In this document: positions 1,029-49,068 of the stretch, one piece after another | Numbering within the stretch: the first letter of the stretch is position 1 | How the letters are laid out: each line of letters begins with the position of its first letter | From: Labilithrix sp. | GTDB lineage: Bacteria; Myxococcota_A; Polyangia; Polyangiales; Polyangiaceae | NCBI GenBank assembly: GCA_028287065.1 | Contig: JAQBQJ010000107.1 | Coordinates: 1 to 51,176 of the forward strand | Direction of reading: 5' to 3' | DNA: 51,176 nt | Translations under genes and position numbers: made by a program | The notes under the pieces: generated by a model | What the model was told of the DNA's origin: nothing | Database searches by the model: none | The model's input: only the letters and a program-made list of their open reading frames with translations

Positions 1029-1034
1029 AGCCTA
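1029..1034 (-). promoter_or_regulatory. -10-like TAGGCT, leaderless arrangement
   Basis: TAGGCT on the minus strand with a 9-nt spacer to the ATG of the OPA-type transporter; no Shine-Dalgarno sequence lies between them. Confidence 0.4.
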
Positions 1035-1078
1035 CCCGAAGCTTGGCCGCCTGCGGTTGGCGGTGCGATGACAAGGGT

Positions 1079-1633
1079 GTGAGCTTTGCGAGCATCCCGC
1101 CGGAAGCGCTTGCGCTCGTGGCGGCACTGGCCCTCGCGGTCGCGTTCGTGCAGGCGCTCTTTCTGGCGGGCCGGCGCTGGGCGAGGCGGCGCCGGATGGC
1201 TATCCGCATGGAGCGAGCGCAAGACGGCGAGGAGCGCGCGGCGCGGCTCCTCGAAGAGCATGGCTTCGTGGTGAGCGGCGCGCAGGCGGTGGTCGAGCAT
1301 GCTGTGCGCATCGACGACCGCGTCGTCGTGGTGGCGCTCAGGGCAGACTATCTCGCGGAAAAGAACGGCGCTCGCTACGTCGTCGAGGTGAAGACGGGCG
1401 CGCTCGCACCGAAGATCGAGACGAGCGCCACGCGCCGCCAGATGCTCGAGTATCGCATCGCGTTCGACGTCGACGGCGTCGTGCTCGTGGACGCCGAGTC
1501 GGGGCGCGTTCACCAGGTGACGTTCCCGGCGCTGGAGCGGCTCGCGCGTCCGACGTCGAGCGGCTGGCGCTTCGTGGCGGTCGCGATCGCCGCGGCGGCG
1601 GCTGTCGTGGTGCTCGCCTTCTTCCGGAACTAA
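1079..1633 (+). CDS. PD-(D/E)XK-like protein flanked by two membrane helices
   Basis: 184 residues from GTG 1079; a TTG 36 nt upstream is possible but would add a Cys-rich stretch unlike a signal or anchor. An Ala/Leu/Val helix (about residues 6-30) is followed by an Arg-rich turn, a soluble core, and a second hydrophobic helix at the extreme C-terminus. The core has R-A-D-Y-L followed by Y-V-V-E-V-K-T-G and then R-R-Q-M-L-E-Y, the order D...ExK...Q/Y typical of restriction-endonuclease-fold nucleases. The likely topology is a cytoplasmic nuclease-like domain held at the membrane. Function and substrate are unknown. The stop codon TAA lies inside a 16-bp repeat (CCGGAACTAAGGACGG), so the last residues R-N are repeat-encoded. 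Confidence 0.65.
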   Translation: MSFASIPPEALALVAALALAVAFVQALFLAGRRWARRRRMAIRMERAQDGEERAARLLEEHGFVVSGAQAVVEHAVRIDDRVVVVALRADYLAEKNGARYVVEVKTGALAPKIETSATRRQMLEYRIAFDVDGVVLVDAESGRVHQVTFPALERLARPTSSGWRFVAVAIAAAAAVVVLAFFRN

Positions 1634-1658
1634 GGACGGTCTCCGGAACCAAGGACGG
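1624..1658 (+). repeat. Two copies of the 16-bp CCGGAACTAAGGACGG repeat
   Basis: Copy 1 at 1624-1639 is exact and contributes the TAA stop of the PD-(D/E)XK-like gene. Copy 2 at 1643-1658 has C for T and so lacks the TAA. It lies between the convergent ends of two genes. The same unit occurs near 19.55 kb and 32.87 kb. Confidence 0.85.
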
Positions 1659-1662
1659 GAGG

Positions 1663-2770: not shown

Positions 2771-3496
2771 CTACTTCTTCGTCTTCTTCAGCGGCGTCTT
2801 CCACAGATACACGTAGTGCTCGCGGTTCTTCGGCTCGCGATGGTCGCGCGCGATGACCGTCCACGTCTTCTCGGGGTCGACGCCCTCCATGTCGAAGTCG
2901 TGCGAGACGATGCGCGAGCCCGGCTTGAGCTTCTCGAGCTGCGGGATCAGGCGCACGTTCAGCTCAGGCAGGAGGTACAGCGTGACGACGGTCGCCTTCG
3001 AGAGATCGACGTCGAAGATGTCCTTGTGCTCGATCGTGACGAGGTGCTCGACGCCGTTGCTCTTCACGTTCGCGCGCGATTCGGCGACGCGCTTCGGATC
3101 GATGTCGAACCCTACGGCGTGGATGCCGAACTTCTTCGCCGCGTTGATCACGATGCGACCGTCGCCGCAGCCGAGATCGTAGAGGACGTCGTCTTTGCCG
3201 ATCTTCGCGACCTCGAGCAGTTTGTCGACGACGTTCTGCGGCGTCGGTACGTACTCGATGTCGGGAACGCGATCCGCGAGGTCGTCGGCGGGCTTGGCAT
3301 CGGTCGCGGCCGGGGCGGCGGACGTGGTCGTGGGCGGCGCCTTCGCCGCGGCGGGAGCGGAGGCCGCCGGCGGGTCGACCGGCATCGCGTTCGGCTTCGG
3401 TGTCGCGGGCGGCGGCTCGTTCGCGGGCGAGCACGACACGGTCAGCGCGAAGCAGGCGACGGCGAGCAGCGAGGAAGAGCGAGCAAGATCGATCAT
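2771..3496 (-). CDS. Lipoprotein with class I SAM-dependent methyltransferase fold
   Basis: 241 residues. The N-terminus is a lipoprotein signal (hydrophobic core ending in L-T-V-S-C, Cys 22), followed by a Pro/Ala/Thr-rich linker to about residue 75. The rest is a class I methyltransferase: Y-V-P-T-P-x-x-V-V-D-x-L-L, then motif I D-L-G-C-G-D-G-R-I-V-I near residue 108, and an acidic strand end G-F-D-I-D. The family normally acts in the cytoplasm because SAM is there; export would place the enzyme away from its cofactor. Substrate unknown. The ATG is preceded by GGAGG with a 5-nt spacer, and TAAGGT lies further upstream, so unlike many neighbours this gene appears to have a leader. It heads a probable two-gene unit with the 88-residue gene. 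Confidence 0.8.
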   Translation of the reverse strand: MIDLARSSSLLAVACFALTVSCSPANEPPPATPKPNAMPVDPPAASAPAAAKAPPTTTSAAPAATDAKPADDLADRVPDIEYVPTPQNVVDKLLEVAKIGKDDVLYDLGCGDGRIVINAAKKFGIHAVGFDIDPKRVAESRANVKSNGVEHLVTIEHKDIFDVDLSKATVVTLYLLPELNVRLIPQLEKLKPGSRIVSHDFDMEGVDPEKTWTVIARDHREPKNREHYVYLWKTPLKKTKK

Positions 3497-3543: not shown

Positions 3544-3549
3544 TAGAAT
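3544..3549 (+). promoter_or_regulatory. -10-like TAGAAT, leaderless arrangement
   Basis: TAGAAT with a 9-nt spacer to the ATG at 3559. TTACCA lies 17 nt upstream as a possible -35, giving a good sigma-70-type spacing. Confidence 0.5.
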
Positions 3550-3558: not shown

Positions 3559-4959
3559 ATGCGGCCCGTGACGTTCGCGACGTTGGCGCTCATCGTGCTG
3601 CTTGCCGCATGCGGAGCGAAGGGCGGCGGGGAAGCGGCGCGGCCGCCGCCACCGCCGGTCGCGGATACGTGCGCGACGCGGATCCCACCGCGCGACGACG
3701 CGAGCAGCGACGGAGGCGCGAACGAGAACGCCACGAGCACGAGCACGAGCGCGATACCCCGATCGCTGTTCGTCGTGCACGCCGAGGTGCCGCTCGCAGG
3801 GATCGCGAAGGCGCTCGAAGGGAAGGTGCCGCTGCGCGTCGCCGAGGAGCGCGATCACGATCTCGGACGGGCCGGCCACCTCGAGTACACCGTCGACCGC
3901 GGGCGGTTCACGGTGCGCGTCGAGGTCGACACGCTCGTCGTCGAGTCCGTGCTGCAAGGCCGCGCGCAGGCCTGCGCGAAGGGCCGTTGCTACGCCGGGT
4001 GCGCGCCCGAGGCTCGCGTCACCGCCAAGGTGCCGCTTCATCTCGGTGCAGACTACAAGCTTCGTACGTCCGAGGTCCGCGTCGACGTGACCAAGCCCTG
4101 CGAGGTCCGCGCGCTCGGCGGGCTTCTCACGATCGACGTGACCCCCGTGCTCCGCGGCGCGCTCGCGCAGCAGTCGCGGAACGTGCAGGCGTCGATCGAT
4201 CGCGAGCTCCCGGACCTGCGCCCGGAGGTGGCGCGCCTCTGGACCGAGCTCGGCAAGACGCGCGAGCTGCCGCTCGGGATGTGCGTCGTTCTCGCGCCCG
4301 AGGAGATCACGCAGGGCCCGGCCACGGGGAACCCCGTCAACGCACGGCTGCAGTTCGGGCTGTTCGCGCGGCCGGAGGTGCGGGTGAAGTGCGGTTCGAG
4401 CACGAGTCCGAGCACGAGAGCACTGCCCGCGTTGCGCGACGATCCCGCGTTGCCGAGGGTAGGCGACGTTCATCTCGCGATTGTCCTGCCCGACGACGCG
4501 CCCGCGCGCGCGCTCGAGCGCGACGTGATCATCGACTTCGGAGGGCGGCGGTCGCGCATCGCGAAGGCCTCCGGCGCCGTGTCGGCGCTCACGCTCGATC
4601 TCGCCGGGGAGGTCTGCGGCGACGTTCGCGTCAGCGCGAGCGGCGTCGCCTGGAACGATCCGCAGTCGCTCCGCCTCACCGGAACCGCGCCGCTCGCGCT
4701 CGAGTCCGATCGGCTCGCGAGCGCCGGGCTCGATGCCGCTCGTATCGGCCCCGCCATCGAGCATGCGCCGATCGCGCTCCCGATCGCACTGACCGCATTG
4801 CCGTCGACGCTCCCCGAGCTCGCGCGCGCGATGTCCGACGATCACGTCAGCATCGCCGTGACCGTCGACAGCGCGCAGCCGGAGTCCGCGTCACTGCGCG
4901 GGGCCGAGCCCGTCGCCGTCGCGCTCCTGCGAGGTGCGGTCACGCTCGTCGCGAAGTAG
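3559..4959 (+). CDS. DUF4403-like lipoprotein
   Basis: 466 residues. The lipoprotein signal ends L-L-A-A-C (Cys 18), followed by a Pro-rich and then Thr/Ser repeat linker (three ACGAGC hexamers at 3733-3750 encode Thr-Ser pairs). The mature part begins with alternating-hydrophobic strands, V-V-H-A-E-V-P-L-A-G-I-A-K-A-L-E-G-K-V-P, as in DUF4403 proteins, which are predicted lipid-binding (BPI-like) envelope proteins. Internal Cys pairs such as C-A-K-G-R-C-Y-A-G-C suggest disulfides outside the cytoplasm. The family assignment comes from the strand pattern and layout, without a search. It is divergent from the methyltransferase-like lipoprotein gene. Confidence 0.6.
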   Translation: MRPVTFATLALIVLLAACGAKGGGEAARPPPPPVADTCATRIPPRDDASSDGGANENATSTSTSAIPRSLFVVHAEVPLAGIAKALEGKVPLRVAEERDHDLGRAGHLEYTVDRGRFTVRVEVDTLVVESVLQGRAQACAKGRCYAGCAPEARVTAKVPLHLGADYKLRTSEVRVDVTKPCEVRALGGLLTIDVTPVLRGALAQQSRNVQASIDRELPDLRPEVARLWTELGKTRELPLGMCVVLAPEEITQGPATGNPVNARLQFGLFARPEVRVKCGSSTSPSTRALPALRDDPALPRVGDVHLAIVLPDDAPARALERDVIIDFGGRRSRIAKASGAVSALTLDLAGEVCGDVRVSASGVAWNDPQSLRLTGTAPLALESDRLASAGLDAARIGPAIEHAPIALPIALTALPSTLPELARAMSDDHVSIAVTVDSAQPESASLRGAEPVAVALLRGAVTLVAK

Positions 4960-4962
4960 GAT
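4957..4962 (+). promoter_or_regulatory. -10-like TAGGAT overlapping upstream stop codon
   Basis: TAGGAT with a 6-nt spacer to GTG 4969. Its first three bases are also the TAG stop of the preceding gene, which makes it less informative than other cases. Confidence 0.25.
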
Positions 4963-5930: not shown

Positions 5931-5936
5931 AGCTTA
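5931..5936 (-). promoter_or_regulatory. -10-like TAAGCT, leaderless arrangement
   Basis: TAAGCT on the minus strand with a 9-nt spacer to the ATG of the 73-residue Cys-cluster protein. Confidence 0.4.
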
Positions 5937-7469: not shown

Positions 7470-7475
7470 AACCTA
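7470..7475 (-). promoter_or_regulatory. -10-like TAGGTT, leaderless arrangement
   Basis: TAGGTT on the minus strand, 6-nt spacer to GTG 7463; supports GTG as the start. Confidence 0.35.
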
Positions 7476-8042: not shown

Positions 8043-8210
8043 TCACCTCGGGTTGGGGTTCGTCGTCCGAGCACTCTCCGTGCCGGACGGATCGATCGCC
8101 AGTCGCACGCCGCAGTGGTCCGAGTAGGTGGTCGTGATGCGCCGTCCGGCCGCTTCGATGCCGAGCGGTTCGTCGAGGATCCGCTGCGGCCACGTGTAGA
8201 GTTGGCGCAT
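8043..8210 (-). pseudogene. C-terminal remnant of an EEP-family nuclease/phosphatase
   Basis: A 55-codon frame contains W-P-Q-R-I-L-D-E-P-L and T-Y-S-D-H-C-G-V-R-L-A-I-D. The S-D-H-x-G-V-x signature followed by a beta-strand is the closing motif of the endonuclease/exonuclease/phosphatase (EEP) superfamily; its Asp and His are catalytic. A full EEP domain is about 250 residues, but here the region upstream is occupied by the aldose epimerase gene on the other strand. The fragment is therefore best read as a relic, 4 nt upstream of the neighbouring minus-strand membrane-protein gene start. A real short peptide gene is the less likely alternative. Confidence 0.5.
8197..8202 (+). promoter_or_regulatory. 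-10-like TAGAGT, leaderless arrangement
   Basis: TAGAGT with a 6-nt spacer to the ATG of the aldose 1-epimerase gene. It lies inside the EEP relic. Confidence 0.4.
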
Positions 8211-10463: not shown

Positions 10464-10469
10464 AGTCTA
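10464..10469 (-). promoter_or_regulatory. -10-like TAGACT, leaderless arrangement
   Basis: TAGACT on the minus strand with an 8-nt spacer to ATG 10455; it supports this start over the upstream in-frame ATG. Confidence 0.45.
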
Positions 10470-12099: not shown

Positions 12100-12105
12100 T
12101 ATGCT
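12100..12105 (+). promoter_or_regulatory. -10-like TATGCT, leaderless arrangement
   Basis: TATGCT with a 7-nt spacer to ATG 12113. It overlaps an alternative upstream ATG (12101), so the promoter reading favours 12113. Confidence 0.45.
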
Positions 12106-12112: not shown

Positions 12113-12619
12113 ATGGCTGCCACCACTGTCGTCGTCGAAACGGACCTGGGGACCTTCGAAATCGCGCTCGACGAGGAGCGCGCGCCGAAGAGCGTCGCGA
12201 ACTTCCTCGAGTACGTCGACGCGAAGCACTACGACGGCACGATCTTCCACCGCGTGATCCCCGGCTTCATGGCGCAGGGCGGCGGCTACGATGCGAAGTA
12301 CGAGAAGCGCGCCGTGCACGAGGCCGTCGAGAACGAGGCCGACAAGACGCGCAAGAACACGCGCGGGACCGTCGCGATGGCGCGGACGAGCGATCCTCAT
12401 TCGGCGACCGCGCAGTTCTTCGTGAACGTCGCCGACAACGGCTTCCTCGATCACACCGCGAAGTCGGGCAGCGGCTGGGGATACACCGTGTTCGGCGAGG
12501 TCACGTCCGGCATGGACGTCGCGGACAAGATGGTCGCCGTCGACACCGGAGCCCAGGGCCCGTTCGCGAAGGACGCGCCCACAAAGCCGATCGTCATCAA
12601 GTCCGTGCGCCGCAAGTAG
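12113..12619 (+). CDS. ppiB: Peptidyl-prolyl cis-trans isomerase, cyclophilin type
   Basis: 168 residues, a single cyclophilin domain of the bacterial PpiB kind that speeds prolyl bond isomerisation during folding. Core motifs are F-H-R-V-I-P-G-F-M-A-Q-G-G (catalytic Arg and the hydrophobic pocket), A-M-A-R-T-S-D-P-H-S-A-T-A-Q-F-F-V-N and G-Y-T-V-F-G-E-V. No signal peptide, so cytosolic. The next gene starts 5 nt after its stop, implying an operon. The symbol denotes the family; orthology to E. coli ppiB is not tested. Confidence 0.93.
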   Translation: MAATTVVVETDLGTFEIALDEERAPKSVANFLEYVDAKHYDGTIFHRVIPGFMAQGGGYDAKYEKRAVHEAVENEADKTRKNTRGTVAMARTSDPHSATAQFFVNVADNGFLDHTAKSGSGWGYTVFGEVTSGMDVADKMVAVDTGAQGPFAKDAPTKPIVIKSVRRK

Positions 12620-12624: not shown

Positions 12625-15045
12625 ATGCACGCAGTACCCCACGGCTCCGCCAGCAGACGCGCTCGTCTCGCGCTCGCGCTCTTCGCGTGCGCTTTCGGGT
12701 CGTCGTGCGCGTCCGCGCATCCCGCACGACGCGTCGCGCCGCCTCCCCCGGTGGTCGCCGCGGCGCCGCCGGCTCCGCGCGAGATCCTGCTCCCGCCGCG
12801 CATGCCGCCGGCCGTCGTCGCGGAGACGTCGCTCGATCCCGAGCGCGATGCGCGCTTCGCTTCCGTCGATGCCGCGGTGTCCGCCGCGATCGACGCCGGG
12901 AAGATGCCCGGATGCGTGCTCGTCGTCGGCCGCCACGACGAGGTGCTCTTCGAGAAGGCGTACGGCTCGCGCGCGATCCTCCCCGAGCGCGTGCCGATGA
13001 CGCTCGACACGGTCTTCGATCTCGCGTCGCTCACCAAGCCGCTCGCGACGTCGACCAGCGTGATGATCCTCGTCGAGCGCGGGAAGGTCGACCTGAAGGC
13101 GCCGGCGTCGCGCTACGTGCCCGAGCTCGCGACGCTGCCGCCGTTCACGGTCGAGCAGCTCCTGATGCACACGAGCGGGCTGCCGGCCGCCACGCCGATC
13201 TCGGATTACGTGAGCGTCGACGCCACGGATCACAGCGGGGTGATGAAGAAGATAGGCGAGGGCCTCGTCGGGAAGCTGAAGACGCAGCCCGGCGAGCACT
13301 TCCTGTACTCGGACGTCGGCTTCGTCGTCCTCGAGGAGATCGTGCGGCGCCGCGCGGGCAAGGACCTCGCGACGTTCACGCGCGAAGAGGTGTGGGGTCC
13401 GCTCGGGATGAACGACACCGGCTATCTCCCGGGAACGTCGCTGCGCGAGCGTGCCGCGCCCACCGAGCAGCGCGACGGCGAGTGGATGATCGGCGACGTG
13501 CACGATCCGCGCGCGTGGGCGCTCGGCGGGATCGCAGGTCATGCCGGCGTGTTCTCGACGGCCGGCGATCTCGCGCGCTACGCCCGCGCGATGCTCTCGA
13601 AGGGCACGCTCGACGGCAACCGGATCGTCAGCGAGAGGACGTTCGACACGTGGACGGCGCGCCGCGACACGTCGAGCGGCGGTCGCGCGCTCGGCTGGGA
13701 CAAGGACAGCCGGTTCGCGTCGCATCGCAGCACGCTCCTGTCGCCGCGCGCATTCGGGCACGGCGGGTTCACGGGCACGGTCATGTGGATCGATCCGGGA
13801 AAGGACCTCTATGTCGTCTTCCTCTCGAACCGCGTTCATCCGGACGGGAACGGCTCCGTGAATCCGCTCGTCGCACAGCTCGCCACCCTCGCGATCGACG
13901 CGAGCGAGGTGAAGACCGGGATCGACGTCCTCCGCGCCGAGTCGTTCGAGCGCTTGAAAGGGGCACATATCGGCCTCGTCACCAACGCGAGCGCGCGCGC
14001 GAAGGACGGCACGAGCACGCTCGACGTGCTCCGGAGCGCGCCGAACGTCACGCTGTCGGCGATCTTCTCGCCGGAGCACGGCATCCAGGCAGCGGCCGAG
14101 GGAAAGATCGCCGACGGCGCCTACCACGGCGTGCCGGTGTACAGCCTGTACGGCGATCGCGCGTCACCCACGTCCACGACGCTCGACGGGATCGATACGC
14201 TCGTCTTCGATCTCCAGGACGCCGGCGCGCGCTTCTACACGTATGCGTCGACGATGAAGCTCGCGATGAAGGTGGCGGCCGACAAGAAGCTCCGCTTCGT
14301 CGTGCTCGATCGACCGAACCCCATCGGCGGCACCGAGGTGTCCGGGCCGGTGCTCGAGCTCGCGGCCGGTGAAAAGAGCGGGAAAGCCGCGTCGTTCGTG
14401 AACCATCATGCGCTCCCCATCCGTCACGGCATGACGGTGGGCGAGCTCGCGAAGCTGTTCGCGGACGACGAGAAGCTCGACCTCTCGCTCGACGTCGTGA
14501 AGATGCAGAACTGGAGCCGGCGGCAGTACTTCGATCACACCGGCCTCACGTGGGTGAGCCCTTCGCCGAACCTGCGCTCCGTCGACGAGGTGGTGCTCTA
14601 TCCCGCCGTCGGCCTGCTCGAATCGACGAACCTCTCCGTCGGACGCGGCACCGACACGCCGTTCGAGGTGCTCGGCGCGCCTTTCGTCGACGGCGAGGCG
14701 CTCGCGAAGAACGTGACCGCGCGCGCGATCCCCGGTCTCGCGGTCGAGGCGATCACCTTCACGCCGAAGGCGAGCCCCCACCAGGGCAAGACGTGCAAGG
14801 GGCTGCGCCTGCGCGTCACCGATCGCACGCGGTTCGAGCCGGTGCGCGCCGCGCTGGGGATCGCGCTCGCGCTGCAAGAGCTTCACGCCGGCGAGTGGGA
14901 CCTCGAGCACGTCGACCGCATGCTGCAGAGCAAGACCGCGCTCGAGGCCATCAAGGCGGGCAAGAGCATCGACGCGATCGCCGCGACGTGGTCGGCGTCG
15001 CTCGCGATGTTCGTGAAGAAGCGCGAGCGCTTCTTGCTCTACTGA
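12625..15045 (+). CDS. Lipoprotein fusion: beta-lactamase-family hydrolase plus NamZ-like (DUF1343) domain
   Basis: 806 residues. A lipoprotein signal ends G-S-S-C (Cys 28), then a Pro/Ala linker. Residues about 75-425 form a serine beta-lactamase/penicillin-binding-type domain: Ser 135-x-x-Lys 138 in L-A-S-L-T-K-P, Tyr 228 in Y-S-D-V-G-F, and H-G-G-F-T-G at 379-384 in place of the KTG box. Residues about 430-806 form a DUF1343 domain opening with V-K-T-G-I-D-V-L and carrying F-S-P-E-H-G-I-Q (Glu 484). DUF1343 includes Bacillus NamZ, an exo-beta-N-acetylmuramidase; the Bacillus neighbour AmiE is a beta-lactamase-fold muramyl-peptide amidase. The fusion therefore probably recycles peptidoglycan fragments at the envelope. 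The hydrolase half could instead be an esterase. Confidence 0.88.
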   Translation: MHAVPHGSASRRARLALALFACAFGSSCASAHPARRVAPPPPVVAAAPPAPREILLPPRMPPAVVAETSLDPERDARFASVDAAVSAAIDAGKMPGCVLVVGRHDEVLFEKAYGSRAILPERVPMTLDTVFDLASLTKPLATSTSVMILVERGKVDLKAPASRYVPELATLPPFTVEQLLMHTSGLPAATPISDYVSVDATDHSGVMKKIGEGLVGKLKTQPGEHFLYSDVGFVVLEEIVRRRAGKDLATFTREEVWGPLGMNDTGYLPGTSLRERAAPTEQRDGEWMIGDVHDPRAWALGGIAGHAGVFSTAGDLARYARAMLSKGTLDGNRIVSERTFDTWTARRDTSSGGRALGWDKDSRFASHRSTLLSPRAFGHGGFTGTVMWIDPGKDLYVVFLSNRVHPDGNGSVNPLVAQLATLAIDASEVKTGIDVLRAESFERLKGAHIGLVTNASARAKDGTSTLDVLRSAPNVTLSAIFSPEHGIQAAAEGKIADGAYHGVPVYSLYGDRASPTSTTLDGIDTLVFDLQDAGARFYTYASTMKLAMKVAADKKLRFVVLDRPNPIGGTEVSGPVLELAAGEKSGKAASFVNHHALPIRHGMTVGELAKLFADDEKLDLSLDVVKMQNWSRRQYFDHTGLTWVSPSPNLRSVDEVVLYPAVGLLESTNLSVGRGTDTPFEVLGAPFVDGEALAKNVTARAIPGLAVEAITFTPKASPHQGKTCKGLRLRVTDRTRFEPVRAALGIALALQELHAGEWDLEHVDRMLQSKTALEAIKAGKSIDAIAATWSASLAMFVKKRERFLLY

Positions 15046-16371: not shown

Positions 16372-16827
16372 ATGCTTGCCGACGTGCCGATCCGCACGAA
16401 GCGCTGGAACGATCGCTTGGATCCCGACGACGGCTATCGCCTCCTGATCTGCCGGTATCGACCGCGCGGCGTCGCGAAGTCCGACGAGACGTGGGATGCA
16501 TGGTGCAAGGCGCTCGGCCCGAGCGAGGAGCTGCATGCGGCGGCCTACGGAAAGACCGGCCCGGCGCTCGCTTTCCCGGAGTACGAGCGGCGGTTCCTCG
16601 AGGAGATGTCGCGACAGCGGTACTGGATCGAGGGCTTTGCCGCGCATCTCCGGCGCGGCGAGACGATCACGTTGCTCTGCTCGTCGGCGTGCGTGGATGC
16701 GAGCCGCTGTCACCGAACCATCGTGAAAAGGCTCCTCGAAGCGGCCGCGGCCGGCCCGACGGCGGCGCCGAAGGCCACCGCGAACGACAAGGTCGTTCGG
16801 CGGCGCGGGTCGAGCTATTCTGACTGA
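16372..16827 (+). CDS. DUF488 family protein
   Basis: 151 residues. Early I-R-T-K-R-W-N-D and Y-R-L-L-I-C-R-Y-R-P-R-G-V, and the later L-L-C-S-S-A-C-V-D-A-S-R-C-H-R-T-I-V, match DUF488 proteins, whose Cys-x(n)-C-H-R segment is the most conserved part. The family has no firmly established function. Soluble. The next gene begins immediately at its stop (TGA then GTG), so the two are probably co-transcribed. Divergent from the hydrolase gene with a 68-nt gap. Confidence 0.8.
   Translation: MLADVPIRTKRWNDRLDPDDGYRLLICRYRPRGVAKSDETWDAWCKALGPSEELHAAAYGKTGPALAFPEYERRFLEEMSRQRYWIEGFAAHLRRGETITLLCSSACVDASRCHRTIVKRLLEAAAAGPTAAPKATANDKVVRRRGSSYSD
16816..16821 (+). promoter_or_regulatory. -10-like TATTCT before Cys-rich gene
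   Basis: TATTCT lies in the last codons of the DUF488 gene, 6 nt before GTG 16828; a possible internal leaderless promoter. Confidence 0.3.
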
Positions 16828-17856
16828 GTGACCGCACGCGGACCTCTCCCTCGACCGCGCCGGCTGCGCGCCGGCGTCAGCGTCGCGCTCGGCGTTTCGG
16901 CGCTGTTCGTGTACGTCGCGTGCGGGTTCGACGGCATCGCCAACGGGCCCGGCGCGTTCGCGCCGGTCGATGATGCCGGAGACGAGCGACCGACGATCTC
17001 GATGGGTGACGGCAGCAGCGCCGACGGACCTCTCGCATGCTCGCTCGAGCAGACGATGTGCGGCGCGGACTGTACGGATCTGAAGGCGGATCCGAAGAAC
17101 TGCGGTGCGTGCGGCATGGCGTGCTCCGAGCTCCAGACCTGCGACCAGGGGAAGTGCACCGTCCTCTGCGTCAACGAGAGCCTTCGCTGCAACGACTCGT
17201 GCATCGACCCGCAGACCGATCCGCTGCACTGCGGAAGCTGCACGAACGCGTGCGCTCCCGGCCTGCTGTGCTCCGCCGGAGCCTGCACGACGGACTGCGG
17301 CGCGCTCTCGACGTGCCCGCTCCCCGCCACCGCCGACGCCGGGACCGCGACCGCGTATTGCACGGATGAACAGACGGACAACAAGAACTGCGGCGCGTGC
17401 GGCAAGGCGTGCAAGGCGAACCAGCTCTGCAAGGCTGGCGTGTGCAAGGACGTGTGCACGGACGTGTCGCGCGTCGGCGACGTCTTCGCGCCGAACATGG
17501 TCGGCTGCGTCCAGACGGCGTCGTGGTTCCAGCGCATCTACATCTGTCCGCCGGGGTCGAAGGTATGCAGCGCCCAGGAGTGGACGCAGCGTCACGGCAC
17601 GAAGACGCCGACGTACGATTACTGGACCGACGACGACCTCCGTTGGTCGGGTGCGGACCAGAAATGCTCCGTGTCGGCTACGAGTGGGAACTACTGCGAC
17701 TACGGAACGCCGATGCGGGTGTGCGCGGGAAAGACCGATCCGCTCGGCAACCAGTGCCGGTGGACGAACTGCGGATTCAACGGCACGACGCCCAATCAGT
17801 ACTTGGGCGGCTGCATCGGCAACAAGACCGCAGGCGCGGTCTGCTGCACTCCCTGA
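16828..17856 (+). CDS. Cys-rich secreted protein with Stig1-like repeats
   Basis: 342 residues from GTG 16828. A basic N-terminus and hydrophobic stretch (V-S-V-A-L-G-V-S-A-L-F-V-Y-V-A-C) form a signal, probably of the lipoprotein type (Cys 32). Residues about 70-220 hold repeated modules of the form C-x(n)-D-x-K-N-C-G-A-C-G-x-x-C-x(n)-C-x-x-G-x-C, like the Stig1-type modules common in myxobacterial surface proteins. The C-terminal third (W-F-Q-R-I-Y-I-C-P-P-G to G-A-V-C-C-T-P) is a separate Cys- and Trp-rich domain. Likely extracellular and disulfide-stabilised. No catalytic motif seen. Confidence 0.75.
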   Translation: MTARGPLPRPRRLRAGVSVALGVSALFVYVACGFDGIANGPGAFAPVDDAGDERPTISMGDGSSADGPLACSLEQTMCGADCTDLKADPKNCGACGMACSELQTCDQGKCTVLCVNESLRCNDSCIDPQTDPLHCGSCTNACAPGLLCSAGACTTDCGALSTCPLPATADAGTATAYCTDEQTDNKNCGACGKACKANQLCKAGVCKDVCTDVSRVGDVFAPNMVGCVQTASWFQRIYICPPGSKVCSAQEWTQRHGTKTPTYDYWTDDDLRWSGADQKCSVSATSGNYCDYGTPMRVCAGKTDPLGNQCRWTNCGFNGTTPNQYLGGCIGNKTAGAVCCTP

Positions 17857-18452
17857 GGATCGTTCGCGCGCGCGGCCTGCATCTCGTTGCAGATGCGATC
17901 GATGCGCGTCGCGAACATCTCCCACAGGAAGGGTGCAACATACACGTTCAGGCCGGGCACCCATGCGAGGACGACCGCGGCGATGCCGAGCTTCTTCGGG
18001 ACCGGCGCGCGGAACGGGATGGTCGCGCGCATGCCTTCGAATGCGTCCGCGACGGCGACCACGAGCCCTAGCTTCCACACCCACGAGATGCCGGGGACGA
18101 AGCTGAGTCCCACGACGAGCCCCGAGCTCACGTTGTCGACCGGGCCGACCTTGCGGAGGATCTCGGGCAGGTTCGACCACGTCCGCTCGAGCCACAGGAG
18201 CTCGCAGATCGCGGCGATCATCCGGAGGACGAGCGCGACGAGGAGGAAGACGAGCGCGGTGACGAGCGGGCGGGCGTAGCGCTCCGGATCGTCCGGGTCG
18301 AAGAGCGGGATCGTGCGACGGAGATAGACGCCGAAGCCGATCGAGAAGGCGACGGCGATCGCGGAGAGGACCAGCGCGAGGATGCGTGCGCGCCGCGCGG
18401 GCGGACGTGCGAACGGGCGCACGATCAAGGGAGCGGCCTGCGCGGGCGGCAT
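17796..18452 (-). CDS. Membrane protein (DUF4328-like)
   Basis: 218 residues with about four membrane segments: after the basic start, at residues about 62-85, 110-135 and 155-175. The loop W-L-E-R-T-W-S-N-L-P-E and the S-F-V-P-G-I-S-W-V-W-K-L repeat of G-x-x-x-W pattern recall DUF4328-type proteins, but this is a tentative match. The 3' end overlaps the convergent Cys-rich gene by about 60 nt. TACACT stands 8 nt before the ATG. Confidence 0.65.
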   Translation of the reverse strand: MPPAQAAPLIVRPFARPPARRARILALVLSAIAVAFSIGFGVYLRRTIPLFDPDDPERYARPLVTALVFLLVALVLRMIAAICELLWLERTWSNLPEILRKVGPVDNVSSGLVVGLSFVPGISWVWKLGLVVAVADAFEGMRATIPFRAPVPKKLGIAAVVLAWVPGLNVYVAPFLWEMFATRIDRICNEMQAARANDPQGVQQTAPAVLLPMQPPKY

Positions 18453-18460: not shown

Positions 18461-18466
18461 AGTGTA
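18461..18466 (-). promoter_or_regulatory. -10-like TACACT, leaderless arrangement
   Basis: TACACT on the minus strand with an 8-nt spacer to ATG 18452. Confidence 0.4.
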
Positions 18467-25208: not shown

Positions 25209-27104
25209 TCAGGTGAGGCGGATCGCCGCGCTGTCCGCGTGGGCTTCGAGCGCGACGACGAGGGCCTCGTGCGCACGCACGAAGTCGTCGCCGCGCGCAC
25301 GCATCGCGAGCGCCAGCGCGCCGGCCACATCCATGGCCTCGCCGCGCGCTCGACGGTCCGTGTATACCGCACGGAAATCGCCGGGTACGCGCATGCTCCA
25401 GTTGTCGTCGCTCACCACGCCGGGGGTGTTGTACGTCGCCGTCTCGCCGAAGAGGTCCGCGAAGAACACGAGCACGTTCGACGCCGGACCGACGAACAGC
25501 TCTGCGAACATCCCGAGCGCGAGCCGCCGCGGATCGCTCGCCAGCGATGCCGCGAGCGTCTTCCGGCGCGACTCCTTCGGCTCGAGCCGCGTCGCGAGAT
25601 AGGCCGCGCGTGCCTCGATCGTGTGGTTGCGGCTCCAGCGCGCGATCACGGCGCGGAGCGGCGGCGTGTCGTGGTTGCCGATCATGATCCAGTCGCGCGG
25701 CTTCGCGTTCTCTCCGCGATAGCCGTCCGCCTCGTCGATGAGGTTCGCCTTCTGCGTAACGCGGAAGCGTCCGAGGCCGTAGCGCTTCATCACCGCTCCG
25801 AGGGGCGCCGGGCAGGTGCTCAGCACCTCGCACAGCACGTCGTCGGCGCTGCCTCCGGCGTTCCGCGCCGCCTCCATCACGATCTCGAAGATCCGCTCGT
25901 ACTCGGTGACCTGCGCCTCGGTCAGGCCGAGGATGTGCGCATCGTCGTAGGCCGGCACGGCGGGATCGATCTGGTCGGGCCGTACGATCGCCAGCGCCGC
26001 CAGCGACGGATGCTCGGCGGACGCAGGCGTCTCGAAGAGGCGCGCGCCGTTCACGACCGCGCGCATCGGATCGGGCGCCGTGCCGTCGTACACCCACGGG
26101 CACACGAGGCCGTGCGGGTGATCGATGCGCACGCCGTCGAGCTCCGAGAACAGCTTCGCGATGCGCGCACGCACGAACGAGAGCGGCGCCGAGGTCTCGG
26201 CATCGTCACCCACGAATCGCCGCAGGTACTGGCGCGGATCGAGCACCGGATAGCCCCATGGCTGGCCCTCGGGGTTGGTCCGGCTCGGCGGAGCGCCCAT
26301 GCGATAGCGATCGAGGAAGAGATGCCCGCGCGTCCATCGATCGCGGAGCGACAGGCCGATCTGCAGGTCTCCGTAGAGGCGCACGCCCAGGGGACGGAGG
26401 TGATCGCGCAGCGCGCGATGCTGCACGTCGAGCACGTATTGCCCGAGCACGTAGGCGCGCACGACGTCGCGCTGCTCGGCAAGCACCTCTTCGATGCGGC
26501 GCGCGCTCGGCTGGCGGTCGGCGTCGGGCCAGAGCTGGAACGCGTCGGTGCCGTGGAGCGCCGCGAACGCCTCGAAGCGCGCGTCGTGCGCGAGCCACTC
26601 GGCCGACGCCTCGAACCGCGCGATGCGAGCGGCGAGCTCCGCCGCGGCGACGTCGCCCTGCGCCACGCGCCGCTCGAGGTTCGCGGCCGCGAGGGCCACA
26701 GCGCGCGACGCCGTGTGGAACGCATGTGTGTAATGTGCACGCGTCTGCCCCTGCGGCATCCCGTAGGCCGCCGCCTCGACGAAGCGCTCGGGCACGACAT
26801 GCGCGAATCGCTCGCTCGCGAGCTCCGGAAGGGCGATCGACAGGATGCTCTTCGAGAACACGGAGCCGTCGTAGGGCGACGGGTTGCCGAGCGACGTCTG
26901 CCCTTGCGGTCCGAGCTGCAGCCCGTCGAAGCCGAGCTCGTGCGCGAGCTCGACGAACGCGTGCCCGCCTCGCGCGTAGGGAGAGCCGCGCCCGACGTCC
27001 TCGCCCGGCGCGCTCGGAAAGCTCACGTCGTGGATCGCGAGCACGAATCGCTCGATCCCCAGCGCACGCAGCGCCGCTCTCACCAGCTCGTGTTGCGATG
27101 CCAA
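25209..27104 (-). CDS. malQ: 4-alpha-glucanotransferase (amylomaltase, GH77)
   Basis: 631 residues, within the GH77 range. The three catalytic acids are visible: nucleophile Asp 328 in G-V-R-I-D-H-P-H-G, acid/base Glu 426 in C-E-V-L-S-T, and the stabilising Asp 479 in N-H-D-T-P-P. The enzyme transfers 1,4-alpha-glucan segments between maltodextrins. The frame opens at TTG 27104; a GTG at 27083 is the alternative. TAGGAT lies 9 nt before the TTG, favouring it. Divergent from glgE, so it probably belongs to the same alpha-glucan cluster. Confidence 0.9.
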   Translation of the reverse strand: MASQHELVRAALRALGIERFVLAIHDVSFPSAPGEDVGRGSPYARGGHAFVELAHELGFDGLQLGPQGQTSLGNPSPYDGSVFSKSILSIALPELASERFAHVVPERFVEAAAYGMPQGQTRAHYTHAFHTASRAVALAAANLERRVAQGDVAAAELAARIARFEASAEWLAHDARFEAFAALHGTDAFQLWPDADRQPSARRIEEVLAEQRDVVRAYVLGQYVLDVQHRALRDHLRPLGVRLYGDLQIGLSLRDRWTRGHLFLDRYRMGAPPSRTNPEGQPWGYPVLDPRQYLRRFVGDDAETSAPLSFVRARIAKLFSELDGVRIDHPHGLVCPWVYDGTAPDPMRAVVNGARLFETPASAEHPSLAALAIVRPDQIDPAVPAYDDAHILGLTEAQVTEYERIFEIVMEAARNAGGSADDVLCEVLSTCPAPLGAVMKRYGLGRFRVTQKANLIDEADGYRGENAKPRDWIMIGNHDTPPLRAVIARWSRNHTIEARAAYLATRLEPKESRRKTLAASLASDPRRLALGMFAELFVGPASNVLVFFADLFGETATYNTPGVVSDDNWSMRVPGDFRAVYTDRRARGEAMDVAGALALAMRARGDDFVRAHEALVVALEAHADSAAIRLT

Positions 27105-27113
27105 GTCGCATGC

Positions 27114-27119
27114 ATCCTA
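27114..27119 (-). promoter_or_regulatory. -10-like TAGGAT before malQ
   Basis: TAGGAT on the minus strand with a 9-nt spacer to the TTG start of malQ. Confidence 0.4.
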
Positions 27120-27197
27120 ACTCAGCCCGCGCCGTGGCTGGCGCGCTGGCGGCCCGTCTCTCGCATGGCGGACCGCCCGCTGGAGGACCCGAGCTCG

Positions 27198-29249
27198 ATG
27201 ACCCACCGGACGGCGAGCGATGCACTGTCGAAGCACACCCGGCCTCGCCCTCCGGACGACGGCCTCCGCCGCGTGATCGTCGAAGGTGCCAGCCCCGAGG
27301 TCGACGGAGGCCGCTATCCGGCGAAGCGTGTCCTCGGTGACGACGTCGTGGTCGAGTGCGATCTGATTGCCGACGGCCATGACGCGATCGCGGGCCGCGT
27401 GCTCTTCCGCCACGCCGCGGCGGCATCATGGCAGGTTGCCCCGCTTGTTCCGCTCGGCAACGATCGGTTCCGCGCGTCGTTCGTCGCGGACCAGATCGGG
27501 ATCTGGGAGGTCACGTTCGAGGGCTGGATCGACGCGTTCACGACCTGGCGCCGCGACACGGAGAAGAAGAAGGCCGCCGATCAGGACGTCACGGTGGAGC
27601 TCCTCATCGGCGCACGCCTGCTGTCCGAGGGCGCGGCGCGTGCGGCGAAGGACGCGCCCGGCGTCGCCGCGCTGCTCGAAGACGCAGCGCGGATCGCCGC
27701 GGATCCGAAGCGCGACGCCGCAGAGCGGTTCGCGGCCGCCACGAGCGATCTCATCGTGCGTGCGATGCTCGCGACCCCCGACCTCTCGCCCGCGAACGCG
27801 ACCCGTTACGACCGCACGCTCCGCATCATCGTCGACCCGGTGCTCGCGCGCTTCAGCGCCTGGTACGAGCTCTTCCCTCGCTCGAGCGGCGAGCCCGGAA
27901 AACACGGCACGTTCGCCGATGTCGAGAAGCGCCTCGACTACGTCGCCGGGATGGGCTTCGACGTCCTGTATCTCCCGCCGATCCATCCGATCGGCCGCGC
28001 TTTTCGCAAGGGACCGAACAACACGCTCACGGCAGGGCCGAACGATCCCGGCAGCCCGTGGGCGATCGGCGCCGCGGAGGGCGGACACAAGGCCGTGCAT
28101 CCCGAGCTCGGGACGCTCGCGGACTTCGAGCGACTCGTCGCGGCTGCGCGCTCGCGCAAGATCGAGGTCGCCCTCGACATCGCGTTCCAGGTCTCTCCCG
28201 ATCATCCGTACGTGAAGGAGCACCCCGACTGGTTCGTCCAGCGGCCCGACGGCACGATCCAGTACGCCGAGAACCCGCCGAAGAAGTACCAGGACGTCTA
28301 CCCGTTCGACTTCGCGTGCAAGGACTGGAAGGGGCTCTGGAGCGAGCTGCTCGACGTCTTCCTCTTCTGGATCGCGCGCGGCGTGAAGGTCTTCCGCGTC
28401 GACAACCCGCACACGAAGTCGCTCCGCTTCTGGGAGTGGTGCATCGGCGAGATCAAGGCGCAGCATCCCGAGGTGCTCTTCCTCGCGGAGGCCTTCACGC
28501 GGCCCAAGCTGATGTACGCGCTCGCGAAGGGCGGCTTCTCGCAGTCGTACACGTACTTCACGTGGCGCAACACGAAGCAGGAGCTCGAGCAGTACCTCAC
28601 CGAGCTCACGCGTCCGCCGGTCGCCGAGTTCTATCGCCCGAGCTTCTGGCCGAACACGCCCGACATCCTGCCCGAGCACCTCCAGCACGGCGGACGGCCC
28701 ACGTTCCTCCAGCGGCTCGTGCTCGCGGCGACGCTCTCGAGCAACTGGGGCATGTACGGCCCGCCGTTCGAGCTTCTCGAGCACGTCCCGCGTCCGGGCG
28801 CCGAGGAGTACATCGACAGCGAGAAGTTCCAGCTCCGTTCGTGGAACCTCGACGACCCGCAGTCGCTGCGCGACGCGATCGCGCTCGTGAACCGCGCGCG
28901 TCGCGAGAACCCGGCGCTGCAACAGACGAGGCGCATCGCGTTCCACAGGACCGACAGCGACGCGCTGATGGCCTACAGCAAGCGAACGGACGACTTCGGC
29001 AACGTCGTGCTCGTCGTCGCCAACATGGATCCGCGGCACAAGCACGGCGGCTGGATCGACCTCGACCTGGCGGAGCTCGGCGTGCGGCCCGGCGAAAGCT
29101 TCCAGGTCCACGACGTCTTCTCCGATGCGCGCTTCTTGTGGAACGGCCCGCGCAACTACGTGGAGCTCGATCCCGCGCTCTTCCCCGCGAGCCTGTTCGT
29201 GGTGCGACGCAAGGTCCGCTCCGAGCACGACTTCGAGTACTTCCTATGA
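27198..29249 (+). CDS. glgE: Alpha-1,4-glucan:maltose-1-phosphate maltosyltransferase
   Basis: 683 residues from ATG 27198; another ATG at 27165 is in frame, but only 27198 has GGAGG upstream, at a long 11-nt spacing. GlgE adds maltosyl units from maltose-1-phosphate to the growing glucan. Sequence marks are an N-terminal beta domain (R-V-I-V-E-G-A-S-P-E-V-D-G-G-R-Y-P-A-K-R), an insertion helix region, and the GH13_3 barrel with Y-L-P-P-I-H-P-I-G-R-x-F-R-K-G-x-N-N. The nucleophile is Asp 402 in F-R-V-D-N-P-H-T-K-S and the acid/base Glu 431 in F-L-A-E-A-F-T-R-P. Length is normal. Its stop overlaps the start of mak-glgB (ATGA). Confidence 0.93.
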   Translation: MTHRTASDALSKHTRPRPPDDGLRRVIVEGASPEVDGGRYPAKRVLGDDVVVECDLIADGHDAIAGRVLFRHAAAASWQVAPLVPLGNDRFRASFVADQIGIWEVTFEGWIDAFTTWRRDTEKKKAADQDVTVELLIGARLLSEGAARAAKDAPGVAALLEDAARIAADPKRDAAERFAAATSDLIVRAMLATPDLSPANATRYDRTLRIIVDPVLARFSAWYELFPRSSGEPGKHGTFADVEKRLDYVAGMGFDVLYLPPIHPIGRAFRKGPNNTLTAGPNDPGSPWAIGAAEGGHKAVHPELGTLADFERLVAAARSRKIEVALDIAFQVSPDHPYVKEHPDWFVQRPDGTIQYAENPPKKYQDVYPFDFACKDWKGLWSELLDVFLFWIARGVKVFRVDNPHTKSLRFWEWCIGEIKAQHPEVLFLAEAFTRPKLMYALAKGGFSQSYTYFTWRNTKQELEQYLTELTRPPVAEFYRPSFWPNTPDILPEHLQHGGRPTFLQRLVLAATLSSNWGMYGPPFELLEHVPRPGAEEYIDSEKFQLRSWNLDDPQSLRDAIALVNRARRENPALQQTRRIAFHRTDSDALMAYSKRTDDFGNVVLVVANMDPRHKHGGWIDLDLAELGVRPGESFQVHDVFSDARFLWNGPRNYVELDPALFPASLFVVRRKVRSEHDFEYFL

Positions 29250-32942: not shown

Positions 32943-33614
32943 ATGGCCATGCCCGAGACAGACTCGCGCCCGAGCGCGAGCGCAGACAAGACTGCGCCTC
33001 AGAAGAAGATGCGCTTCTCCATGGTGCGCACCTTCGTGCTCGCCGACTTGATCACGCTCGGCAACGCGTTTTGCGGCACTGGGGCGGTTCTCGCCAGTAT
33101 GAGCTACGTCGCGACACGCGACCGTTCGGCCGTCTGGGCGGCGCTCATCCTGCTTCCGCTCGCGCTCGTGTGCGACGCGCTCGACGGTGCGGTCGCGCGG
33201 TGGCGTCGTCGCTCTTCGCCGCTCGGAGCCGACCTCGACTCGCTCGCGGACATCGTGTCGTTCGGCGTGGCGCCGGCGGCGCTCGGCTTCGCGCTCGGCC
33301 TCCGCGGCGGATGGGACGCCATCGCGCTGTGCTTCTTCGTCGCGTGCGGGATCAGCCGCCTCGCGCGGTACAACGTGACGGCCGCCGCGCTCTCCGACGA
33401 CAGCGGGAAGGTGAGGTACTACGAGGGCACGCCGATCCCGACGAGCCTCGCGCTCGTCCTCGCGCTCGGGATCGCGTTCGGACAGGGCGCCGTGGGCGAG
33501 TCGCTGTGGCTCGGCAGCCTCGCGCTCGGCCCGTTCGTGTTCCATCCGCTCACGCTCATGTACGTGATCAGCGGCGCGCTCATGGTCAGCACGTTCAAGA
33601 TCCCGAAGCCTTAG
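32943..33614 (+). CDS. pssA: CDP-diacylglycerol-serine O-phosphatidyltransferase
   Basis: 223 residues from ATG 32943; TTG and GTG codons up to 32889 are in frame but less likely. TAAGGT at 32912-32917 would give a short leader. The CDP-alcohol phosphotransferase signature is complete: D-G-x2-A-R-x8-G-x3-D-x3-D at residues 81-103. Six or so membrane helices surround it. The early T-L-G-N-A-F-C-G and the later S-R-L-A-R-Y-N-V are typical of the PssA branch, which makes phosphatidylserine as precursor of phosphatidylethanolamine. Followed 11 nt later by a methyltransferase gene. Confidence 0.87.
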   Translation: MAMPETDSRPSASADKTAPQKKMRFSMVRTFVLADLITLGNAFCGTGAVLASMSYVATRDRSAVWAALILLPLALVCDALDGAVARWRRRSSPLGADLDSLADIVSFGVAPAALGFALGLRGGWDAIALCFFVACGISRLARYNVTAAALSDDSGKVRYYEGTPIPTSLALVLALGIAFGQGAVGESLWLGSLALGPFVFHPLTLMYVISGALMVSTFKIPKP

Positions 33615-33617
33615 CGT
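33612..33617 (+). promoter_or_regulatory. -10-like TAGCGT overlapping pssA stop
   Basis: TAGCGT with an 8-nt spacer to GTG 33626. Because TAG is also the pssA stop codon, this case is less informative than others. Confidence 0.25.
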
Positions 33618-35212: not shown

Positions 35213-35218
35213 AGTGTA
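35213..35218 (-). promoter_or_regulatory. -10-like TACACT, leaderless arrangement
   Basis: TACACT on the minus strand with a 6-nt spacer to GTG 35206; supports GTG as the start. Confidence 0.4.
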
Positions 35219-44032: not shown

Positions 44033-44038
44033 AGAGTA
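44033..44038 (-). promoter_or_regulatory. -10-like TACTCT, leaderless arrangement
   Basis: TACTCT on the minus strand with a 10-nt spacer to ATG 44022; supports that start. Confidence 0.4.
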
Positions 44039-44169: not shown

Positions 44170-44175
44170 TAGAAT
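44170..44175 (+). promoter_or_regulatory. -10-like TAGAAT before tesB
   Basis: TAGAAT with a 10-nt spacer to ATG 44186, the same hexamer and nearly the same spacing as at 3544. Confidence 0.5.
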
Positions 44176-48100: not shown

Positions 48101-48995
48101 CGCCGAGCACCGCCTCACGTCGCCGCGGTTCACGATCGACGGCACGACCTTCGAGCTCGACGTGAAGCACCGCTGGTCGTTCCGCATCTCGACGCGCCGC
48201 AAGGTCGACATCGACGGCGGCGTCATCGAGGTCAGCGTCGACAAGGGCAAGACCTGGAAGGACATCTCCGAGCTCGGGACCGTCGACTACACCTCCACGC
48301 TCGACGAGGCGCGCGGCGACAACTCCCTCAAGGGCCGTCGCGCGTACGGCAACAAGAGCCCTGGCTATCCCGACGCGTGGGTGACCTCGCGCATCAAGGT
48401 CGACCTGAAGGCGCATCCCGAGCAGGTCCAGATCCGCTTCGTGCACGCGAGCGGCACCGGCTTCTCGGGCGCGCCCGGCTGGGAGATCGACGACGTCGAT
48501 CTCGTCGGCATCTCGAGCAAGCCGTTCTGGAGCTTCGTCGAGCATGCCGATCAGTGCGACCCGAAGGGTCCCACGGCGTCGGCGGGCGAGCCGATCACGG
48601 CGAAGTCGAAGCAGACGGTCACGCTGACGGGCAGCGCGACGCATCCTCAGGAGCTGCCGGTCACGTTCACGTGGTCGCAGGTCGCCGGTCCGCCGGTGAA
48701 GCTGACGCCGAACGAGGCGACGCTCTCGTTCGAGGCGCCGGACGTCGGCACGCAGACCCTCGTTCTCACGTTCGCGCTCCGCGCCGACGACGGCAAGCTG
48801 CTCAGCCCCGCCGCGCACGTCGACGTGACCGTCGTTCCCGCGGACGCGGTCGACTTCGGGGCGGGCGGCGGCGGTTGCTCGACGTCGAAGCGGGTTGTGC
48901 CTCGCGCGGGGGTCTCCTCGTTCGCCCTCACGTTCGTCACGCTCGGCTTCCTCGCCCTCGGCGTGCTCGCACGCCGCCGGGCGCGGCGGGGCTGA
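45117..48995 (+). CDS. M36 (fungalysin) family metalloprotease with PA domain and MYXO-CTERM tail
   Basis: 1292 residues. A lipoprotein-type signal ends V-L-V-A-C (Cys 19). A FTP-like propeptide region follows (F-G-L-T-E-A-A-L-A; V-Y/F-R-G-G-L near residue 123). The M36 catalytic domain has H-E-W-G-H at 601-605 and the third ligand Glu near 628 in G-L-G-E-G-W-A-D-F. A PA domain is inserted near 480-590 (G-K-I-V-L-V-H-R-G-L-C-P-F). Beyond 800 come beta-sandwich and Ig-like modules. The C-terminus has G-G-G-G-C-S-T-S, a hydrophobic helix and R-R-R-A-R-R-G, the MYXO-CTERM pattern for cleavage and surface anchoring. It is probably a secreted, surface-attached zinc endopeptidase. Confidence 0.92.
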   Translation: MIDRTSRALAVGALVLVACSSSGDRNDAARVAPPPPPPAEAVRAFVAHRDARLDAPSFVWLAKHEAARFASAHEAATTSLHSVAQTFGLTEAALAAVEMASVDDASGSHRGPVIARFRQRERGIEVFRGGLAIAMTSSFEPVSASGFLARSLSGAEAPFVRSTREALDDAYRALTGGSSTFHSLDTAGDYERFDASGLAAPARVKKVLFPQPSGVVPAYYVEIEIAHGPAFSFVIAAGDGTVLLKNDLVRFDAFSYRTWSDPTTKIPWDGPQGNGIAPHLTGKPDGFKPTWQPSSLVTLQNYPFSKNDPWLPADATTLSGNNVRAYADLNAPDGIGGDSSPSISGPLAFDYAYDTTQSPGATPTNIAGSTTHLFYVTNFLHDWYYDLGFDEKAGNHQFDNYGRGGNGHDPLKAEAQDYDGRNNANATVPADGSSPRLQMYVFSGPSFAELKVLSPSPLVGSKSVGLAGFGKDEFDTTGTVVLGVDDQGVDASDACEALTNGVSGKIVLVHRGLCPFVQKAQNVQEAGGIGVIVANVAASAQPTVPPFMGGTSLAITIPILSLALADGQALEAAIPIGASVEMRRLLQTDLDGGIDTTIVAHEWGHVISGRLISDGAGLTTNQSGGLGEGWADFSALLLMARADDITSPAGAGWRGAYPNGAYATSGTGTDFYFGIRRVPYSIDFTKDPLTLKHISNGVALPANVPISFGEDGSFNSEVHATGEVWATMLWECYAALLRDPRYTFAQAQERMRRYYVASLALTPPDPTIIEARDAVLAAAFASDEKDYVLFWQAFGRRGAGVGAVGPAKDSGDNGGVTESYFVGNDVQIVAGPLTDNTISCDHDGILDEGEVGTFTLTIRNSGPGLLEHATVKLSSAHPGVTFLDGDTVNLEPLKPFGSTALKVRTQIAGGEPIKPVTVDVAVSDPTFADGRVAHAAVTARYQADEAPGTSSTDHVDTRGTAWAVAGEDTSNATKKWARVTTGLDGKWVVPNPFEVAEHRLTSPRFTIDGTTFELDVKHRWSFRISTRRKVDIDGGVIEVSVDKGKTWKDISELGTVDYTSTLDEARGDNSLKGRRAYGNKSPGYPDAWVTSRIKVDLKAHPEQVQIRFVHASGTGFSGAPGWEIDDVDLVGISSKPFWSFVEHADQCDPKGPTASAGEPITAKSKQTVTLTGSATHPQELPVTFTWSQVAGPPVKLTPNEATLSFEAPDVGTQTLVLTFALRADDGKLLSPAAHVDVTVVPADAVDFGAGGGGCSTSKRVVPRAGVSSFALTFVTLGFLALGVLARRRARRG

Positions 48996-49053
48996 GAGGC
49001 GCGGCGGGGGCCGAGCGGCGCGGGGGCTTTTGCCCGAACGCCGTTCGCCCCGA

Positions 49054-49059
49054 TATGCT
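49054..49059 (+). promoter_or_regulatory. -10-like TATGCT, leaderless arrangement
   Basis: TATGCT with a 9-nt spacer to GTG 49069; helps choose this GTG as start in a frame that is open upstream. Confidence 0.4.
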
Positions 49060-49068
49060 CGGGACGAC

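Follow-up and report, generated by a model that had tools for sequence, protein, structure and literature searches.

TAnnnT hexamers directly upstream of start codons in a Polyangiaceae genome, with a link between spacing and start codon

Leaderless genes with a TAnnnT-type -10 element next to the start codon are already known from Actinobacteria and Deinococcus-Thermus and have been predicted in delta-Proteobacteria. The portions of the literature considered here describe, for Mycobacterium tuberculosis, a TANNNT -10 element, no conserved -35 element and a purine at the transcription start in 85% of cases (Cortes 2013, PMC3898074); for mycobacteria, a preference for C at position -1, a reporter that needs ATG or GTG at +1, and 1098 cases of RTG at +1 as against 558 at +2 to +5, the latter seemingly less efficient (Shell 2015, PMC4633059); and for Deinococcus-Thermus, a -10 motif a few base pairs before about 30% of open reading frames (ORFs), giving leaderless mRNA (PMC12340547). 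GeneMarkS-2 places 21.6% of bacterial genomes in a class with leaderless transcription (quoted in PMC9581028), and leaderless genes marked by a TA-like signal are predicted in 8 of 33 delta-Proteobacteria, with a mean of 15.8% and a range of 5.7-20.6% (Zheng 2011, PMC3160421). Here, a comparable arrangement is described in Labilithrix sp. (Polyangiaceae), starting from a contig of 51,176 nucleotides (nt) that was analysed in its entirety (contig C470; the window) and that belongs to a 7.09-Mb genome of 577 contigs, 72% complete and with about 70% G+C. In this genome a TAnnnT hexamer precedes many start codons by 6-10 nt, and these hexamers are very probably -10 elements of the sigma-70 type, belonging to promoters that abut the start codon and would yield leaderless or near-leaderless mRNAs.

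The arrangement resembles that of Zheng 2011 in that TAnnnT adjoins the start codon in high-GC genomes, at a mean for the delta-Proteobacteria close to the 15.5% found here; that of mycobacterial leaderless transcripts (PMC3898074) in the TANNNT form of the putative -10 element; that of Deinococcus-Thermus (PMC12340547) in that a -10-like element adjoins ORFs; and the GeneMarkS-2 leaderless class (PMC9581028) in that leaderless genes and genes with a Shine-Dalgarno (SD) sequence would be mixed in one genome. The portions of the main text of Zheng 2011 considered here name no myxobacterium and do not connect spacing with start codon; a search of that main text for words starting with 'myxo' or 'Sorangium' found none (Anaeromyxobacter would escape it). 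An earlier note on this DNA, made from its letters alone, knew of no general description of leaderless genes for the lineage; a prediction for the wider group exists. In the titles and abstract openings among the literature matches listed, no mapped or dedicated study of leaderless genes in Polyangiales was seen, and none on a rule linking GTG to spacing. The parts that merit testing are the wide range of spacers and the GTG rule.

The 16 sites listed in the earlier note had been selected by eye for the motif, and the proposal was therefore re-tested with start calls that are independent of it. Genes were called in a 985-kb sample of the genome (the window and further contigs; contigs L003, L219 and L227, all N, were excluded) with a 3-periodic order-4 Markov model trained on the same sequence, which tolerates gene overlaps of up to 40 nt and picks start codons by coding potential and codon type only, leaving upstream signals unused. 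Of 861 genes called, 43 were dropped for want of a called start or of sufficient flanking sequence, leaving 818. With the spacer defined as the nucleotides between hexamer and start codon, TAnnnT is found at spacers of 6-10 nt before 127 of these 818 starts (15.5%), compared with 1.5% at control positions, a value that agrees with the chance rate of 1-2% per gene estimated in the earlier note. That note had also held that a positional peak at 6-10 nt should be visible genome-wide, and on 985 kb the peak is sharp: the counts at spacers 6 to 10 are 24, 37, 22, 27 and 19, compared with some 2.4 per position; spacers 5 and 11 have 2 and 9, respectively, and the others 0-7. About 14% of the genes in the sampled genome (about one in seven) are probably of this start-abutting type beyond chance.

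The enrichment is not confined to the window, since 118 of the 777 starts outside it carry the motif. Five-position control bins hold a mean of 12 genes, 200 dinucleotide shuffles give 14.7 +/- 3.6 genes with a maximum of 26, in-frame ATG or GTG codons inside genes are preceded by the motif in only 25 of 11899 cases, and TAnnnT ranks first by a wide margin among 256 gapped triplets. Within the window itself, 9 of the 41 genes with independently called starts have the motif where about 1.5% would be expected (binomial p = 7e-9), and these are 9 of the 16 sites chosen by eye. That the pattern reflects chance or the choice of examples might be suspected from this manner of selection and from the seven sites that lie away from independently called starts; with 127 of 818 genes against 12-15 expected, the first rank among 256 patterns and the recurrence in a pool of relatives (below), this explanation is already refuted and its likelihood is negligible.

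A second possibility is that the hexamers are -10 boxes of ordinary promoters, each followed by a short leader and a true start further downstream. High-GC DNA makes starts difficult to call, and at six of the 16 sites (7470, 8197, 10464, 27114, 35213 and 44170) the in-frame start next to the hexamer lies 21-105 nt upstream of the start that the caller prefers. In one of these, the aldose 1-epimerase ORF from 8209, the Pfam match starts at residue 28, upstream of the called start. However, the peak is equally strong at starts without a nearby alternative (51 of 273, against 3.25 in the control). When candidate starts in the neighbourhood of the called one are also accepted, 174 of 758 genes show the motif, compared with 27-44 at control spacings, and the matches fall predominantly at the called start (119) or upstream of it (41), with only 14 downstream. 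The distance to the N-terminal methionine is furthermore preserved in most of the cyclophilin orthologues described below. Displaced starts are accordingly considered very unlikely.

In addition to its position, the hexamer shows some features expected of a promoter. A G stands two bases before it in 61% of the motif genes (77 of 127, against 47 of 120 other upstream TAnnnT copies; p = 0.0009) and TGn precedes it in 28 of the 127, against 12 of the 120 (p = 0.015); this enriched G and TGn is read as an extended -10 element, which in the mycobacterial data (PMC3898074, in the parts considered) accompanies 7% of TANNNT elements. SD 4-mers are at background in the motif genes (4.7%, control 6.7%), as compared with 24.7% in the remaining genes (control 10.1%), which would use SD sequences or no recognisable site. 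The motif stands before 61 of 308 divergent genes and before only 3 of 94 genes that overlap their upstream neighbour. Among same-strand genes it is found in 24 of 72 gaps of 9-30 nt and in 24 of 118 gaps of 31-80 nt, so that even the shorter of these two classes of gap can hold it; the corresponding number for gaps of 9-30 nt in relatives is 4 of 49, and promoters in such gaps are not claimed as a trait of the lineage. Of the 19 gaps of 9-13 nt in the 985 kb, four hold a hexamer whose first three bases are the TAG or TAA of the upstream stop codon (compare 4957-4962 and 33612-33617 in the window). With stops of this kind at 9-13 nt, the sixth place is T in 4 of 8 cases, against 28 of 199 overall, numbers too small for a claim that stop codons double as -10 elements.

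A further observation, and an addition to the earlier note, is a link between start codon and spacing. At spacers of 6-7 nt the ratio of GTG to ATG is 26:35, whereas at 8-10 nt it is 4:59 (p = 2e-6); in other genes it is 204:465. Restricted to unambiguous starts, the ratios are 14:10 and 1:24, respectively, and the relatives pool gives 16:24 and 4:29 (p = 0.009). The published mycobacterial data compare as follows: in the parts of PMC3898074 considered, ATG and GTG occur with equal frequency in leaderless and in leadered genes, while GTG is nearly confined to spacers 6-7 here; the parts of PMC4633059 considered pool the two codons, separated here, as RTG; and spacers of 8-10 nt are about as frequent here as those of 6-7 nt, unlike in mycobacterial leaderless transcripts. 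The base directly before the codon is C in 45 of 61 genes at spacer 6-7, compared with 355 of 691 elsewhere.

These observations bear on a third alternative, in which the hexamer would not be a promoter but, as in Bacteroidota, a non-SD signal rich in A and T at which a leadered mRNA is bound by the ribosome or unfolded. The hexamer does take the place of the SD sequence in the same genes and at an SD-like distance, and PMC9581028, in the parts considered, gives 10.4% as the share of bacterial genomes with predicted non-SD sites. On the other hand, a T-A-n-n-n-T frame in which only the three middle bases vary, together with the extended -10 G, resembles RNA polymerase recognition, and the hexamer is rare in overlapping genes, where ribosomes would need their signal all the same. 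The switch between GTG and ATG from spacer 7 to spacer 8 is also left unexplained by a ribosome signal. A non-SD site would, in our own expectation, be independent of both gene overlap and start codon, and the motif depends on both. The extended -10 G, the lack of SD sequences, the low frequency among overlapping genes and the coupling of start codon to spacing favour a promoter directly before the codon over a ribosome site, which is regarded as very unlikely.

Transcription usually begins about 7 nt downstream of a -10 box. Taken together with the preference of RNA polymerase for purines, this distance would put the 5' end of the mRNA on the first base of the codon at spacers of 6-7 nt. RNA polymerase would then most likely start on the codon itself, and the ribosome would read the leaderless mRNA from its 5'-terminal AUG or GUG. 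At spacers of 8-10 nt, transcription would most likely start 1-4 nt before the codon, producing near-leaderless mRNAs that almost exclusively begin translation with AUG. The start-codon counts fit such a reading, in which GUG is accepted only at the 5' terminus of the mRNA and AUG also behind 1-4 nt. The earlier note's proposal of mRNAs that begin at or within a few nucleotides of the start codon is supported by the peak, the extended -10 G, the absence of SD sequences and the start-codon link, but a leader of zero length fits only about half of the sites, those with spacers of 6-7 nt, and the rest imply leaders of 1-4 nt. In a wider form, Polyangiales would possess two classes of start-abutting promoters, leaderless (spacer 6-7, AUG or GUG) and near-leaderless (spacer 8-10, leaders of 1-4 nt, AUG required), with GUG serving only as the first codon of the mRNA and with a broad spacing that distinguishes the order from Thermus; on this generalisation our judgement is evenly balanced.

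The same pipeline was applied to a pool of 98 loci from relatives (1.02 Mb; 97 from the same genus, family or order and one named Polyangiaceae locus; locus L195, with 78 N, was removed). The motif is present at 74 of 730 starts (10.1%, against 1.6% in the control; with the named locus left out, 74 of 714), and start-abutting genes beyond chance probably amount to about 8.5%. Individually, seven relatives give values between 3 of 73 and 10 of 77. As a separate observation on the order, many of its members (relatives G001-G057) hold at least two strong RecA matches. On pTT27 of Thermus thermophilus, analysed with this pipeline as well, 31 of 182 starts carry the motif, and the counts at spacers 6 to 10 (19, 8, 1, 3 and 0) form a narrow distribution that differs from the broad one of this genome (p = 4e-5) and of the relatives pool (p = 0.0009). 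The peak was not found in Geobacterales (0 of 54, control 3.6) or Rhizobiales (1 of 96, control 3.9) and is hardly present in high-GC alpha-proteobacteria (7 of 228, control 3.75). Acidobacteria gave 3 of 37 (control 1.1) and Nannocystaceae 2 of 34 (control 0.5), and among 47 annotated starts of E. coli 3 have the motif, against 2-8 in control bins.

Orthologues of three window genes were compared, namely cyclophilin (12 of the 15 matches listed at 66% identity or more in other genomes), the DUF4403 protein (6) and the acyl-CoA thioesterase (30 loci); conservation is strong for the first and weak for the other two. For the cyclophilin gene at 12113, TAnnnT is found 6-10 nt before the N-terminal methionine, aligned within one codon, in 9 of 12 orthologues, with middle bases that vary (TATGCT, TAGGAT, TAGGGT, TAGAGT, TACATT and TAGCCT). 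Of the other three loci, one ends at a contig edge before the start and two have, by eye, one-base variants of the hexamer.

The ribosomes of these bacteria look ordinary on two points. In the three genomes checked from the window's family or order (L248, L252 and L254), the 16S carries an intact anti-SD sequence, CACCTCCTTT, and a loss of the anti-SD is thereby ruled out for these three; a 16S search of the window's own genome gave no match. The protein bS21 was found in 29 of 29 genomes searched, so that its loss is ruled out there, while the control genomes of Thermus, Deinobacterium and Corynebacterium gave no bS21 match.

Several results weigh against promoters abutting the start codon. 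The raw genome-wide count of TAnnnT-N5-9-ATG (1072) barely exceeds that of the reversed form (1037); most copies are, however, taken to be chance copies inside genes, and the raw count was replaced by the test at gene starts, the only place where the motif stands out. In the upstream sequences aligned on the hexamer, no clear TTGAC is seen at the distance expected of a -35 element, which is weak at best. Same-strand genes behind gaps of more than 80 nt, expected often to be the first of their transcripts, carry the motif in only 10 of 159 cases, so that a simple first-gene rule is not matched; these genes may rely on leadered promoters. The counts for divergent and for overlapping genes agree with such a rule, but the 24 of 72 in same-strand gaps of 9-30 nt do not. 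The excess of C before the codon relative to other genes is modest (p = 0.014 for ATG, 0.09 for GTG). The thioesterase gene at 44186 has the motif in 8 of 30 loci, its own among them (7 of 29 others), with 2, 2, 2, 11 and 2 in the control bins, and for the DUF4403 gene at 3559 the arrangement is kept in 1 of 6 orthologue stretches, one of which is cut off before the start. In two of the seven relatives the signal is weak, with 3 of 73 and 4 of 58 (control 1.5 each). A pair of genomes from the same phylum but outside the class shows 4 of 55 against a control of 4.25 (the caller being weak at their GC content), and no clear peak emerges in two small samples expected to be positive, Streptomyces SAP1 (1 of 44) and Deinococcus MP1 (2 of 33).

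In a genome of this kind, the calling of gene starts, promoters and operons on the basis of SD sequences would misjudge about one gene in seven. The switch between GTG and ATG from spacer 7 to spacer 8 also offers a test, from sequence alone, of how the ribosome chooses start codons near the end of an mRNA.

Within the window, all 16 hexamers listed in the earlier note are present, each with ATG, GTG or TTG at a spacer of 6-10 nt (Table 1); the spacer is 6 nt in five, 7 in one, 8 in three, 9 in five and 10 in two. TAGAAT, TAGGAT, TACACT and TATGCT recur as the note had stated, with two copies apiece, and its two cases in which the TAG belongs to an upstream stop, which it had not located, are those at 4957 and 33612. 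Its contrasting examples of SD-led genes hold in part: those at 3496 (GGAGG) and 8038 (GAGG) are plausible, but the gene at 40753 (-) has no clear SD sequence, as AGGAGG abuts its GTG without a spacer. Given this odd placement, the start at 40753 may be mis-set.

Table 1. TAnnnT hexamers before start codons in the window, with the start of each gene relative to the independent call.
Hexamer	Position	Strand	Spacer (nt)	Start codon	Gene or product	Independent start call
TAGGCT	1029..1034	-	9	ATG 1019	MFS transporter, truncated at contig end	same start
TAGAAT	3544..3549	+	9	ATG 3559	DUF4403 protein, divergent gene	same start
TAGGAT	4957..4962	+	6	GTG 4969	methyltransferase; TAG is the stop of the upstream gene	same start
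TAAGCT	5931..5936	-	9	ATG 5921	73-aa ORF	same start
TAGGTT	7470..7475	-	6	GTG 7463		21 nt downstream; weaker case
TAGAGT	8197..8202	+	6	ATG 8209	aldose 1-epimerase	105 nt downstream
TAGACT	10464..10469	-	8	ATG 10455		21 nt downstream
TATGCT	12100..12105	+	7	ATG 12113	cyclophilin peptidyl-prolyl isomerase	same start
TATTCT	16816..16821	+	6	GTG 16828	STIG1-like repeat protein	ORF not retained
TACACT	18461..18466	-	8	ATG 18452		same start
TAGGAT	27114..27119	-	9	TTG 27104	GH77 4-alpha-glucanotransferase	60 nt downstream; weakest case
TAGCGT	33612..33617	+	8	GTG 33626	methyltransferase; TAG is the stop of the upstream gene	same start
TACACT	35213..35218	-	6	GTG 35206		54 nt downstream
TACTCT	44033..44038	-	10	ATG 44022		same start
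TAGAAT	44170..44175	+	10	ATG 44186	acyl-CoA thioesterase	21 nt downstream
TATGCT	49054..49059	+	9	GTG 49069		same start

The ORF behind the hexamer at 16816 is absent from the caller's set, probably because its overlap of 61 nt with the convergent gene at 17796-18452 exceeds the 40 nt allowed. Its protein (16828-17856, +) has three STIG1-like matches, of the plant stigma type. Further genes of the window include one at 12751-15045 (+) for a 764-aa protein that fuses a beta-lactamase-family domain with the N and C domains of the exo-beta-N-acetylmuramidase NamZ. At 25209-29249, the GH77 glucanotransferase gene and a gene for the maltosyltransferase GlgE, both of alpha-glucan metabolism, are arranged divergently with about 120 nt between their called starts.

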